The notes beneath the pieces are model-generated. The model was not told the origin of the DNA, ran no database searches, and worked only from the letters and a program-made list of their open reading frames with translations. The position numbers were made by a program, and so were the translations under genes. From Flavobacterium sp. (GTDB lineage: Bacteria > Bacteroidota > Bacteroidia > Flavobacteriales > Flavobacteriaceae): 49,088 bases of DNA. Positions 6,368 through 16,176 of this stretch are shown here, one piece after another. Position 1 is the stretch's first letter; the number at the start of each line of letters is the position of its first letter. Location of the stretch: NCBI RefSeq assembly GCF_023151265.1, contig NZ_JAKLJH010000029.1, positions 1 to 49,088 of the forward strand. Reading direction: 5' to 3'.

Positions 6368-7642
6368 ATGAATTTAAAGTTTTTAATTGCACTCGTTTTT
6401 GTTTCCTTGAATAGTTTTTCACAATCGCAATGGAGAGCTTTGTCGTCTGCTATTTCTAATCCAAATAACCAACGATTTGACGATGTTTTTTTCTTAGATG
6501 AAAACCTTGGTTGGGCTTTAAATGGAAGTTATGCATCTGTTTATAAGACTATAGATGGTGGAGTAACATGGACACAACAGTTGAATGAAACGGCTTTAGG
6601 TGCTAATTATTACTTTAGAAATATTGAGTTTTTAAATCAGAATGTAGGTTTTGTAGGAACTTTAACAAATAATAAATTTTTTAAAACAATTGATGGAGGT
6701 ACTACTTGGTCTGAAATAACAAATATTTCTCCTGCACCAAGAGCTATTTGTGGTTTAGATGCAGTGGGAACATCAACTGTTTACGGTTGTGGAGCTTATT
6801 TTTCAACTACGCCATTTATTGTAAAATCTGTCGATAGCGGTGCAACTTGGCAATATATTAATATGTCAAGTTATGCAACGGGTTTGGTAGAAATTATGTT
6901 TATAGATGAGAATTTTGGTTATGTTTCAGGAAGAAGTGCTACAGGAGGTATAGTTCTAAAAACAACTGATGGAGGTCAAAGTTGGGTTGAAATTTACAAT
7001 AGTGGAATTCCAGGTGAGTATGTATGGAAAATGCAACTTTTACAAGGAAATTCAGATGTTATTTTTGGTTCAATTGAATCTGTTACTCCAAATAATGGTA
7101 AACTAATACGAACTACAAATGCTGGTGTTACTTGGGAAACTAAAAATGCTCCTGAGGTTGAAATTCAAGCAGTTGGTTTTATTTCTTTAGATCATGGTTG
7201 GATGGGCGGTCATAGTACTGGATTTTATGAAACGAATGATGGAGGAAATACTTGGGTAAGCCTGAATGTTGGTAGTAATCTCAATAGAATTTTTATTATA
7301 AACGAAAATTTGGCTTACGCTTCAGGCACAACAGTTTATAAATATGATCAAACATTAAGTAGTACAGATTTTCAGGAAGTTCCGAGAGTTCCTTTGTTGG
7401 TAAAAGTTGTGCCAAATCCAATAGTCGATAAATTAAATTTGAGTATTAATTTTAAAGATTCGGATAACCTCAATATTGAATTGTACGATAATTTAGGTAG
7501 AAAACTTAAAGACCTCTTCTTTGAAGAAATTACCCAGCAAGGTGAAAAATTATACTCTTTTGACTTTCCCTACCCAAAAGGTGTTTATTTTGTGAATTTA
7601 CATAGTAATACAGGGCGTCAAAGCATAAAAATCATAAAATAA
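6368..7642 (+). CDS. YCF48/BNR-repeat beta-propeller protein with type A T9SS C-terminal sorting domain
   Basis: Signal peptide from M at 6368; repeated K(T/S)xDGGxTW motifs; C-terminus VPNPIVDKLNLSINF...YDNLGRKL...YPKGVYFVNLHSNTGRQSIKIIK. Confidence 0.85.
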   Translation: MNLKFLIALVFVSLNSFSQSQWRALSSAISNPNNQRFDDVFFLDENLGWALNGSYASVYKTIDGGVTWTQQLNETALGANYYFRNIEFLNQNVGFVGTLTNNKFFKTIDGGTTWSEITNISPAPRAICGLDAVGTSTVYGCGAYFSTTPFIVKSVDSGATWQYINMSSYATGLVEIMFIDENFGYVSGRSATGGIVLKTTDGGQSWVEIYNSGIPGEYVWKMQLLQGNSDVIFGSIESVTPNNGKLIRTTNAGVTWETKNAPEVEIQAVGFISLDHGWMGGHSTGFYETNDGGNTWVSLNVGSNLNRIFIINENLAYASGTTVYKYDQTLSSTDFQEVPRVPLLVKVVPNPIVDKLNLSINFKDSDNLNIELYDNLGRKLKDLFFEEITQQGEKLYSFDFPYPKGVYFVNLHSNTGRQSIKIIK

Positions 7643-7901: not shown

Positions 7902-10691
7902 ATGGCGTTAGCTACTGAAATGAATCTTTATAACGAGTATATTAAAGAAATCGAAGAAAGAAAAGGTCAAGGATTACACCCAAAACCAATTGATAGAGCT
8001 GATTTGTTAAATGAAATCATTGCTCAAATTAAAGATACAAACAACGCAAACAGACAAGATTGTTTGAAGTTTTTTATCTACAACACTTTGCCAGGAACAA
8101 CTCCTGCAGCTGGAGCTAAAGCAAAATTCTTAAAAGAGATTATTCTTGGTCAAGAAATAGTTGCTGAAATTACTCCAACATTTGCTTTTGAATTGTTATC
8201 TCACATGAAAGGTGGACCTTCTATTGAAGTACTTTTAGATTTAGCATTAGGAAATGATTCAAATATTGCAAATCAAGCGGCTGAAGTTTTAAAAACACAA
8301 GTTTACCTTTACGATGCTGATATGGCTCGTATCAAAGAAGCTTATGAGAATGGAAATACCGTTGCTAAAAATATTTTAGAAAGTTATGCTAAAGCAGAAT
8401 TCTTTACTAAACTTCCAGAAATTGAAGAAGAAATTAAAGTAGTAACCTTCATCGCTGGAGAAGGTGATATTTCAACTGACTTATTGTCCCCAGGTAATCA
8501 AGCGCACTCGCGTTCTGACCGTGAATTACACGGAAAATGTATGATTACGCCTCAAGCGCAAGAAGAAATCAAAGCCTTACAAGCGCAACATCCAGATAAA
8601 TCGGTAATGTTAATTGCTGAAAAAGGTACGATGGGAGTTGGTTCTTCTCGTATGTCAGGAGTAAATAACGTGGCGCTTTGGACAGGAAAACAAGCTAGTC
8701 CTTATGTACCATTCGTAAACTTTGCTCCAATCGTAGGAGGAACTAACGGAATTTCTCCAATCTTCCTTACTACAGTTGACGTAACTGGTGGTATCGGAAT
8801 TGATTTAAAAAACTGGGTTAAAAAGACAGACGCCAACGGAGAATTAGTTCGTGATGAAAATGGAGAACCAATTTTAGAGCAAGTGTATTCAGTTGCAACT
8901 GGAACTGTTTTAACTATCAATACTAAAACAAAAAAATTATACAACGGTGATAAAGAATTGATTGATATTTCAAGATCGTTCACACCACAAAAAATGGAAT
9001 TTATCAAAGCAGGTGGTTCTTATGCTATCGTTTTTGGTAAAAAAATCCAAACGTTTGCAGCTAAAACTCTTGGAATTGAAGCGCCCTTAGTTTACGCACC
9101 TTCAAAAGAAGTTTCAGTTGAAGGACAAGGTTTAACTGCGGTTGAAAAAATCTTCAATAGAAATGCGGTTGGAACTATTTCTAAAAAAGCATTACACGCA
9201 GGTTCAGATGTTCGTGTTACTGTAAACATCGTAGGTTCGCAAGATACTACAGGTTTGATGACGGCTCAAGAATTAGAATCAATGGCAGCGACTGTGATTT
9301 CTCCTATTGTTGATGGAGCGTATCAATCAGGTTGTCACACGGCTTCTGTTTGGGATAAAAAAGCACAAGCTAATATTCCTAAATTAATGCAATTCATGAA
9401 CGACTTTGGTTTAATCACGGCTCGTGACCCAAAAGGTGTTTATCATGCGATGACCGATGTAATTCACAAAGTATTAAATGATATTACGGTTGATGAATGG
9501 GCTATCATTATTGGTGGTGATTCACATACTAGAATGTCTAAAGGAGTTGCTTTCGGAGCAGATTCAGGAACAGTTGCTTTAGCTTTAGCTACAGGTGAAG
9601 CTTCAATGCCAATTCCAGAATCAGTGAAAGTTACTTTCAAAGGAAATATGGCAAGTTATATGGATTTCCGTGACGTGGTTCATGCTACGCAAGCGCAAAT
9701 GTTACATAAATTTGGTGGTGAAAACGTTTTCCAAGGAAGAATTATCGAAGTACATTTAGGAACTTTAACCGCTGACCAAGCGTTTACATTCACAGATTGG
9801 ACTGCCGAAATGAAAGCAAAAGCGTCTATTTGTATTTCTGAAGATGAAACGTTAATCGAATCATTAGAAATTGCAAAAGGAAGAATCCAAATCATGATTG
9901 ATAAAGGCATGGACAACAAAAACCGTGTGCTTCAAGGATTAATCGATAAAGCAAACAAGCGTATTGCCGAAATCAAATCAGGTGAAAAACCAGCGTTACG
10001 TCCAGATGCTAATGCAAAATATTATGCAGAAGTTGAAGTAGATTTAGATCAAATCGCTGAGCCAATGATTGCTGACCCAGACGTTAATAATAAAGACGTT
10101 TCTAAACGTTATACTCACGATACAATTCGTCCGCTTTCTTTCTACGGAGGTGACAAAAAAGTAGATTTAGGATTCATCGGTTCTTGTATGGTTCACAAAG
10201 GCGATATGAAAATCTTAGCACAAATGCTTAAAAATATCGAGAGACAACAAGGTAAAGTGGAATTCAAAGCGCCTTTAGTAGTGGCTCCTCCAACCTACAA
10301 CATTGTTGACGAATTAAAAGCAGAAGGTGATTGGGAAGTATTACAAAAATATTCAGGTTTCGAATTTGATGATAATGCACCAAAAGCAGCAGCTCGTACA
10401 GAATACGAAAACATGTTGTATTTAGAGCGTCCAGGTTGTAACCTATGTATGGGTAACCAAGAAAAAGCGTCTAAAGGAGATACGGTTATGGCAACATCAA
10501 CGCGTTTATTCCAAGGTCGTGTGGTTGAAGATACTGCTGAGAAAAAAGGAGAATCTTTATTATCATCTACACCGGTAGTAGTTTTATCAACAATTTTAGG
10601 AAGAACTCCTTCAATTGAAGAATATAAATTAGCTGTAGAAGGAATCAACTTAACTAAGTTTGCTCCATCGCACAAATTGTTAGTAGGATAA
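7902..10691 (+). CDS. acnB: Bifunctional aconitate hydratase 2 / 2-methylisocitrate dehydratase
   Basis: 929 aa; N-terminal HEAT-like AcnB domain then aconitase signatures (IIGGDSHTRMSKGVAFGADSGTVALALATGE; GCNLCMGNQ). Confidence 0.97.
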   Translation: MALATEMNLYNEYIKEIEERKGQGLHPKPIDRADLLNEIIAQIKDTNNANRQDCLKFFIYNTLPGTTPAAGAKAKFLKEIILGQEIVAEITPTFAFELLSHMKGGPSIEVLLDLALGNDSNIANQAAEVLKTQVYLYDADMARIKEAYENGNTVAKNILESYAKAEFFTKLPEIEEEIKVVTFIAGEGDISTDLLSPGNQAHSRSDRELHGKCMITPQAQEEIKALQAQHPDKSVMLIAEKGTMGVGSSRMSGVNNVALWTGKQASPYVPFVNFAPIVGGTNGISPIFLTTVDVTGGIGIDLKNWVKKTDANGELVRDENGEPILEQVYSVATGTVLTINTKTKKLYNGDKELIDISRSFTPQKMEFIKAGGSYAIVFGKKIQTFAAKTLGIEAPLVYAPSKEVSVEGQGLTAVEKIFNRNAVGTISKKALHAGSDVRVTVNIVGSQDTTGLMTAQELESMAATVISPIVDGAYQSGCHTASVWDKKAQANIPKLMQFMNDFGLITARDPKGVYHAMTDVIHKVLNDITVDEWAIIIGGDSHTRMSKGVAFGADSGTVALALATGEASMPIPESVKVTFKGNMASYMDFRDVVHATQAQMLHKFGGENVFQGRIIEVHLGTLTADQAFTFTDWTAEMKAKASICISEDETLIESLEIAKGRIQIMIDKGMDNKNRVLQGLIDKANKRIAEIKSGEKPALRPDANAKYYAEVEVDLDQIAEPMIADPDVNNKDVSKRYTHDTIRPLSFYGGDKKVDLGFIGSCMVHKGDMKILAQMLKNIERQQGKVEFKAPLVVAPPTYNIVDELKAEGDWEVLQKYSGFEFDDNAPKAAARTEYENMLYLERPGCNLCMGNQEKASKGDTVMATSTRLFQGRVVEDTAEKKGESLLSSTPVVVLSTILGRTPSIEEYKLAVEGINLTKFAPSHKLLVG

Positions 10692-14342: not shown

Positions 14343-14356
14343 ATGATATTTATCAT
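14343..14356 (+). promoter_or_regulatory. Crp/Fnr-like palindrome ATGATATTTATCAT upstream of the MBL-rhodanese gene
   Basis: Perfect 6-bp inverted arms (ATGATA-TT-TATCAT), core TGAT-N4-ATCA; identical sequence on the opposite strand at 16163-16176. Confidence 0.6.
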
Positions 14357-14406
14357 TTTACTTCCAACTAATAGCATGTAAATTCGTAACTTCTAAAAGT
14401 TATGTC

Positions 14407-15825
14407 ATGAAAGTAGAACAAATTTATACAGGTTGCATTGCGCATGCTGCTTATTACGTTGAAAATAATGGTGAAGCCGCTATTTTTGATCCATTACGTG
14501 AAGTCCAACCTTATATCGATCGTGCTAAAAAGGATAATGCTAAAATCAAATATGTATTTGAAACACATTTTCATGCCGATTTTGTTAGCGGTCATTTGGA
14601 TTTAAAAGCAAAAACGGGAGCTCAAATTGTTTTCGGTCCAACAGCAAAACCTAATTATGAAGCTTTAATAGCCTCTGATGGACAAATTTTTACTATTGGA
14701 AATTATAAAATAAAAGCCATTCATACGCCTGGTCATACCATGGAAAGCACAACTTATCTTTTAATTGATGAGAATGATAAGGAACATGGAATTATTTCGG
14801 GTGATACTTTATTTATTGGTGATGTTGGTCGACCTGATTTAGCCCAACATGTGGTTGCTGATTTAACGCAAGATAAATTAGCGCGCTTATTATATCATTC
14901 GCTTCGTGAGAAAATAATGCCGTTATCTGATGATTTAATTGTGTATCCAAATCATGGAGCTGGAAGTGCGTGCGGAAAGAATATGAGTAAGGAAACTACG
15001 GATACTTTAGGTAATCAAAAACGAACCAATTATGCGCTTCGACCAAATATGACAGAAGATGAGTTTGTAAAAGAATTGCTTACTGGGTTGACAACGCCAC
15101 CTGGCTATTTTCCAAAAAACGTATTATTGAATTTAAAAGGATATGAATCGTTAGATAAAGTTATTGAGAAAGGTAAAAAGCCTTTGAATCCAAATGAATT
15201 TGAAACTTTAGCAAATGTATCTGGCGCTTTAATTTTAGATACTAGAAATGCCAATGATTTTGCAAAAGGGTTTATTCCGAATAGTATTAATATTGGAATT
15301 GATGGCAGTTTTGCGATGTGGGTTGGTGAAATGATTTCCGATATCAATCAAGCTATTCTTTTAGTTACAGAACCTGGTAGGGAAGAAGAATGTATGATTC
15401 GTCTTTCGAGAGTAGGATATGATAATACCATCGGTTATTTAGAAGGTGGTTTTGAATCTTGGAAACAAGCCGAAAAAGAAACCGATTTTTTAAAGCGAAT
15501 TACTGGAGAACAACTAGAAGTGATGCTAAAAACAGCAGATTTGCCATTGTTTGATGTTCGTAAGAAAAGCGAATTTGATTCTGAGCATTTATTGAATTCT
15601 ACTAATATTCCACTAAATCAGTTGAATACTAAATTAGGTAGTTTTCCTAAAGAGAAACCATTCGTAATTTATTGTGCAGGAGGTTATCGCAGCATGATAG
15701 CAGCTTCGATTTTAAAACAAAGAGGTTTTGATAATTTTGTTGATGTTTCTGGTGGTTTTAATGAAATAGCTAAAACAACTGATTTGCCCAGAACGGTTTA
15801 TGTTTGTCCATCAACTTTGTTATAG
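14407..15825 (+). CDS. MBL-fold persulfide dioxygenase-like protein with two C-terminal rhodanese domains (CstB-like architecture)
   Basis: MBL motif THFHADFVSGH, HTPGHTMES; first rhodanese unit has no catalytic Cys (AILLVTEPGREEECM), second has YCAGGYRS. Confidence 0.9.
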   Translation: MKVEQIYTGCIAHAAYYVENNGEAAIFDPLREVQPYIDRAKKDNAKIKYVFETHFHADFVSGHLDLKAKTGAQIVFGPTAKPNYEALIASDGQIFTIGNYKIKAIHTPGHTMESTTYLLIDENDKEHGIISGDTLFIGDVGRPDLAQHVVADLTQDKLARLLYHSLREKIMPLSDDLIVYPNHGAGSACGKNMSKETTDTLGNQKRTNYALRPNMTEDEFVKELLTGLTTPPGYFPKNVLLNLKGYESLDKVIEKGKKPLNPNEFETLANVSGALILDTRNANDFAKGFIPNSINIGIDGSFAMWVGEMISDINQAILLVTEPGREEECMIRLSRVGYDNTIGYLEGGFESWKQAEKETDFLKRITGEQLEVMLKTADLPLFDVRKKSEFDSEHLLNSTNIPLNQLNTKLGSFPKEKPFVIYCAGGYRSMIAASILKQRGFDNFVDVSGGFNEIAKTTDLPRTVYVCPSTLL

Positions 15826-15830
15826 AAATA

Positions 15831-15857
15831 AATAAACCGCTTTTAAGCGGTTTATTT
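15831..15857. terminator. Bidirectional terminator between convergent genes
   Basis: AATAAACCGCTT-TTAAGCGGTTTATT, symmetrical A/T flanks. Confidence 0.8.
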
Positions 15858-15869
15858 ATTTAGTAAAAA

Positions 15870-16106
15870 TTAACTATCTTTTAAAAAGTTAAATATTTCA
15901 TCTTTTAGAAACACGCGATCTTTTCTAAGATGTGATAATTCATCATCCATAGCTAATTCTTCGTCGGTTTCAATTTTGTATATTTTCTCATCTAAATCTG
16001 TATACGATTTTAACAAAACCTGAAATTCATCATTGTTGTGATATAGGTTTTTAATTTTGTCTGCAAATTCAGGAAAATCTTGATAAATAGGATGTTTAGT
16101 TATCAT
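15870..16106 (-). CDS. Small DUF465/YdcH-like helical protein
   Basis: 78 aa; F..YHNNDEFQVLLKSYTDLDEKIYKIE...DDELSHLRKDRVFLKDEIF resembles the YdcH/DUF465 pattern. Confidence 0.7.
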   Translation of the reverse strand: MITKHPIYQDFPEFADKIKNLYHNNDEFQVLLKSYTDLDEKIYKIETDEELAMDDELSHLRKDRVFLKDEIFNFLKDS

Positions 16107-16132
16107 AACGCTGGTTTTTAAATTAGTATACT

Positions 16133-16140
16133 CAAATTTA
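16133..16140 (-). promoter_or_regulatory. -7 promoter element (TAAATTTG) for the DUF465 gene
   Basis: Reverse complement of CAAATTTA; centre is 33 bp from the centre of the palindrome at 16163-16176. Confidence 0.55.
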
Positions 16141-16162
16141 CTAAATTTAACTAGTATTGCGT

Positions 16163-16176
16163 ATGATAAATATCAT
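16163..16176 (-). promoter_or_regulatory. Crp/Fnr-like palindrome (ATGATATTTATCAT on minus strand) upstream of the DUF465 gene
   Basis: ATGATAAATATCAT on + strand is the exact reverse complement of the 14343-14356 site. Confidence 0.6.

Follow-up and report, generated by a model that had tools for sequence, protein, structure and literature searches.

Why would the same palindrome stand in front of two convergent genes, each time at the same distance from a promoter element? In the Flavobacterium window (the whole stretch of DNA that was analyzed, 49,088 nucleotides), positions 14343-14356 of the plus strand read ATGATATTTATCAT, and the reverse complement lies at 16163-16176. A re-reading of the sequence agreed with the first-pass annotation, which had placed both palindromes here, each 33 bp, center to center, from a -7-like box. 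The MBL-rhodanese gene starts at 14407 (+) and the DUF465 gene at 16106 (-). The features of the region are as follows:

14343..14356, plus strand: putative FNR-type operator ATGATATTTATCAT of the MBL-rhodanese promoter, center 33 bp from the -7-like box; identical in L017-L021
14379..14386, plus strand: -7-like box TAAATTCG, which departs from TAnnTTTG at one base; shared by L017-L019 and L021
14407..15825, plus strand: MBL-rhodanese gene, 472 aa, CstB-like architecture; Pfam matches to one metallo-beta-lactamase (Lactamase_B) and two rhodanese domains
15870..16106, minus strand: DUF465 gene, 78 aa, convergent to MBL-rhodanese; Pfam DUF465, E 9.5e-9
16133..16140, minus strand: -7-like box for DUF465, TAAATTTG; six relatives likewise have an exact TAnnTTTG at 33 bp
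16163..16176, minus strand: putative FNR-type operator ATGATATTTATCAT for DUF465; relatives retain it, with symmetric changes

In the MBL-rhodanese protein, Pfam places the MBL domain first and the two rhodanese domains after it; by this architecture the protein would be CstB-like, and a persulfide dioxygenase activity is predicted. The two palindromes are very probably genuine control sites, and we suggest that they act as operators in an FNR-type oxygen-limitation regulon present throughout the genus, whose likely regulator is an FNR-like protein encoded beside cbb3-oxidase genes. We regard this reading as likely and hold it with good confidence.

Both sites are conserved in related Flavobacterium genomes. 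The MBL-rhodanese operator is identical, and at the same distance, in five close relatives (L017-L021). At the DUF465 gene, the operator is retained by each of the six named relatives with the convergent arrangement. Of ten other genomes whose DUF465 is at least 46% identical, nine retain it too (G010 does not), and some of these genomes may be conspecific with the named relatives. In several relatives, the two half-sites of the DUF465 operator were altered together, for example ATGACAATTGTCAT replacing ATGATAATTATCAT, and nearby bases have diverged; the distance to an exact TAnnTTTG is 33 bp in the six named relatives.

We asked where else such sites occur. A relaxed motif, MTGAYAnnTRTCAK, with its degeneracy taken from the relatives, is found at six places in the genome versus one for the reversed control, and at each of the six a -7-like box, no more than one base off TAnnTTTG, lies 33 bp from the center. 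They belong to MBL-rhodanese, DUF465, hemN, an EF-G paralog, a 47-aa protein, and ccoI, which is divergent from fnr. The exact combined pattern, TGAYnnnnRTCA-N23-TAnnTTTG, occurs at 10 places in this genome against ~0.34 expected, and its targets include ccoNO, NirK-like, RIC/YtfE-type iron repair, OmpW-like, and Rrf2 regulator genes (the names NirK, HemN, and RIC come from our reading of the sequences together with Pfam matches to multicopper-oxidase, radical-SAM, and ScdA_N/hemerythrin). Pattern matches inside longer open frames were taken as chance (e.g., L185, L199, L207, L208, and L214); L185, one of the ten places, looks like such a match.

The same combined pattern is present at 87 places in ten other Flavobacterium genomes versus 0 for the reversed pattern, and at seven places in 11 genomes when the spacer is shortened by 5 bp. 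Sixty of the 87 places precede homologs of this genome's candidate target genes, and hemN and ccoNO carry the pattern in all ten relatives as well as here. Three proposals of the first-pass annotation gain ground: a Crp/Fnr-type operator, a class II activator position, and a redox or oxygen type of signal, one of the options it had offered. An operator of this kind stands at the same distance before hemN, ccoNO, ccoI, and other respiratory genes. The annotation's suggestion of control sites also survives the comparison with genome-wide background, given 87 places versus 0 and the sites kept in relatives.

Three further genes drew our attention. First, the 47-aa protein (L192; G000:C116, site 6978-6991) has one predicted membrane-like stretch and no match in a Pfam search. 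Its class II operator is found in eight of the ten relatives too, homologs being L217, L221, L236, L239, L245, L267, L283, and L295, which makes it a candidate for an uncharacterized small protein of the low-oxygen response. Second, the EF-G paralog (L205; G000:C68, site 9211-9224) is preceded by an FNR-type box that lies 33 bp from a -7 element with one mismatch, and it is absent among the exact combined-pattern matches of the ten relatives; it would be unusual for a translation factor to be linked to oxygen limitation. Third, a peroxiredoxin-like gene with the exact operator and -7 pattern in two relatives (L271 and L286; G112 and G106) is a possible additional target.

Which protein might read these sites? 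The genome has eight cNMP-binding matches, seven of them above the Pfam cut-off. The best candidate is the FNR-like protein, of 225 aa, whose gene lies on contig C97 beside the cbb3-oxidase (cco) genes; there, ccoN and ccoO are fused into one 725-aa frame with COX1 and FixO domains (L104 4745-6922). The fnr gene is present in 30/30 genomes searched, and in 29 of them its promoter contains the operator. In this genome the fnr operator lies ~20 bp from the fnr -7-like box, a placement that suggests autoregulation. The same operator (L104 9642-9655; G000:C97, 15141-15154) is 33 bp from the ccoI -7-like box, such that a single site could serve to repress fnr and activate ccoI. The GTAACAAAGGTCAC match in the fnr-ccoI interval seems to be incidental, produced by the -7 box of ccoI.

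The recognition helix of the FNR-like protein keeps its Glu and Arg in all 30 genomes. This type of helix has been set apart from GTAACnnnnGTTAC binders, and loss of Glu181 has been tied to the GTAACnnnnGTTAC motif (PMC1274295). Cys4, Cys7, and Cys106 align with three of the four cluster cysteines of a solved FNR, and Cys29 and Cys53 are found in 28 and 30 of 30 orthologs, respectively; an FNR-type iron-sulfur cluster is not assured, given a Ser at the third cluster-cysteine position.

We propose that, at low oxygen, the FNR-like protein would bind TGAYnnnnRTCA and, with the operator center 33 bp upstream of the center of the -7 box and so near -40, would act as a class II activator of transcription. 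A -7/-33 promoter consensus is described for Bacteroidetes (PMC2483708). Predicted targets include ccoNO, ccoI, hemN, an OmpW-like protein, cytochromes, MBL-rhodanese, and DUF465. The sites, their spacing, their conservation, and the gene set are read from DNA sequence, and from there we infer the identity of the binding regulator, oxygen as its signal, and activation as its effect. Oxygen limitation strongly raises cbb3 oxidase in F. psychrophilum, and enzymes of heme synthesis are also up (PMC9723704). The proposal would bring an enzyme of the persulfide type under oxygen control, and the fixed distance between operator and -7 box offers an easy criterion by which class II activator promoters can be located in Flavobacterium.

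The first-pass annotation had tied the DUF465 protein to persulfide metabolism, and gene order points elsewhere. In 19/19 loci examined, more distant DUF465 homologs are immediately preceded by the last gene of the cco run, DsbD_2 (SafE-like), an arrangement seen in many Flavobacterium genomes, and the five of these that were checked against Pfam DUF465 all scored above the cut-off. In this genome DUF465 stands alone with a box of its own, and across the family Pfam DUF465 is found in only 2 of 81 genomes. By its genomic context within the genus, DUF465 is predicted to be linked to the cbb3 oxidase rather than to persulfides, a testable link for an uncharacterized family of small proteins. A literature search, with most subscription papers outside it, found nothing on DUF465 with cbb3 oxidase and no FNR regulon or operator described for Flavobacterium.

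An alternative main reader of the sites would be a different Crp/Fnr protein that recognizes similar DNA, for example the denitrification-linked C166 (NO-responsive, DNR-like), acting by itself or jointly with the FNR-like protein. C166 also keeps the Glu in its recognition helix, related sites resembling TGATTnnAATCA precede the nirK, NorC-like, and RIC/YtfE-type genes with an identical or almost identical spacing, and genes predicted under both FNR and DNR owing to similar motifs have been noted before (PMC8510549). However, C166 has no close ortholog in G098, G113, G084, G010, and G076, and still the DUF465 operator is kept in G098, G113, and G076 and the hemN and ccoNO sites in G098, G113, and G084; fnr, by contrast, is in every genome searched. 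We consider this alternative unlikely. The TGATTnnAATCA-like sites of the denitrification-type genes (NirK-like, NorC-like, and RIC/YtfE) lie at G000:C67 (L188, L189, L202, L203, and L204) and C166 (L194), and this subtype, or the denitrification genes, may be served by the DNR-like protein.

The first-pass annotation had suggested a two-gene regulon that responds to sulfide/persulfide or to redox state. In the sulfide form, private to the two genes, a sulfur-sensing Crp/Fnr protein would activate MBL-rhodanese and DUF465 together. The persulfide-type domain architecture of the MBL protein speaks for it, as do the mere two exact 12-base matches in the genome and the TauE/SafE gene and Crp/Fnr gene just upstream of MBL-rhodanese in many relatives. 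Against this, the six relaxed sites are mostly before other genes, and the operator precedes respiratory genes throughout the genus; DUF465 homologs, as above, come after the cco operon. Some sulfur genes of this genome carry a different type of site: the gene for a 102-aa rhodanese is preceded, at exactly 33 bp, by GTAACTTTTGTTAC, a GTAAC-type palindrome of the GTAACnnnnGTTAC kind, and a thioredoxin-rhodanese operon divergent from hemN has, in our reading of the sequence, a GTAAC-like site. We find the private sulfide circuit very improbable, and neither its two-gene extent nor its signal is supported.

A different Crp/Fnr protein appears to control the sulfur-type genes: GTAAC-type sites precede some of them, and the TauE-linked regulator C99 has, in our alignment, a Val at the Glu181 position, where loss of the Glu is tied to GTAACnnnnGTTAC (PMC1274295). 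A near-match to the GTAAC type also precedes C99 itself. Palindromes GTAACnnnnGTTAC near 33 bp from a -7 box occur at L180 (G000:C184, 3033-3046), L172 (C19), L174 (C85), L176/L177 (C105), and L184 (C120), in front of genes for rhodanese, heavy-metal-domain-like, TolC-like, and other proteins; they are probably the regulon of C99.

This second palindrome bears on the history of the MBL-rhodanese promoter. Within 220 bp of 80 MBL-rhodanese loci, 58 have TGAYnnnnRTCA, 45 a GTRAY-type palindrome, and 29 both, versus ~1.3 and ~0.4 for the two types in a mononucleotide-shuffled control. A class II candidate of some type is found at 71 of the 80 (hybrids and 32-34 bp allowed), some of them far upstream and with a weaker -7 element. 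In many other Flavobacteriales the gene carries a GTAACnnnnGTTAC-type site, and the window gene has the FNR-type site only. Operators of related regulators overlap: hybrid GTGAC..GTCAC sites (cf. GTGACAAAAGTCAC) fit both motifs, and MBL-rhodanese may have changed control in evolution via such hybrids. The type of site at the MBL promoter showed no link to a C99-type regulator in the flank (6/15 versus 17/37, p = 0.77). As a tentative scenario, quite possible if somewhat short of probable, the class II site would have drifted from GTAACnnnnGTTAC, read by a sulfur-linked regulator, through a dual-reading GTGACnnnnGTCAC to TGATnnnnATCA, read by FNR, and DUF465, a cbb3 accessory, would have left the operon and kept its FNR box. 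If true, site drift brought persulfide oxidation under oxygen control.

Chance can be set aside with near certainty: AT-rich DNA of this composition would yield one to two exact matches per genome (~1.4 expected for ATGATAnnTATCAT, so that the count of two in the 2.76-Mb draft genome, only these two, is not unusual by itself), and the eight two-mismatch look-alikes in the window are near chance level, but not the paired placement before two convergent genes (~0.0015 chance pairs within 2 kb), the fixed 33-bp spacing (a given position would hold a -7-like box with no more than one mismatch with a probability of ~0.011), the symmetric conservation in relatives, or the genus-wide enrichment of the combined operator and -7 pattern.

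How does the proposed FNR-type regulon compare with known systems? CstB-type persulfide dioxygenase-sulfurtransferases have one MBL and two rhodanese domains and are controlled through a CstR operator. The window gene shares these domains; unlike CstB-type genes, it is predicted to be controlled through an operator of the Crp/Fnr type and not through one for CstR, and its neighbors are a LysM/NlpC-P60 gene and DUF465. With the HcpR2-type GTAACnnnnGTTAC regulons (PMC1274295), the resemblance lies in the motif of the second palindrome, before the rhodanese here and before MBL-rhodanese in other Flavobacteriales. HcpR2 differs in that hcp genes are the targets described for it and in that its residue at the Glu181 position is Pro, against Val in C99 by our alignment, and the window's two sites are not of the GTAACnnnnGTTAC type. 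A further parallel is with the oxygen-limitation FNR/ANR/FnrL regulons of Proteobacteria, which share the TGAT-N4-ATCA core, a class II location, and hemN and cbb3-oxidase genes as targets; in the Flavobacterium FNR-like protein, two N-terminal cysteines and the VC(xIP) cysteine align with their counterparts in a solved FNR. In contrast to the proteobacterial systems, the Flavobacterium promoter has the Bacteroidota TAnnTTTG -7 element instead of sigma-70 boxes, the regulator has Ser in place of the third cluster cysteine, and MBL-rhodanese and DUF465 are among the predicted targets.
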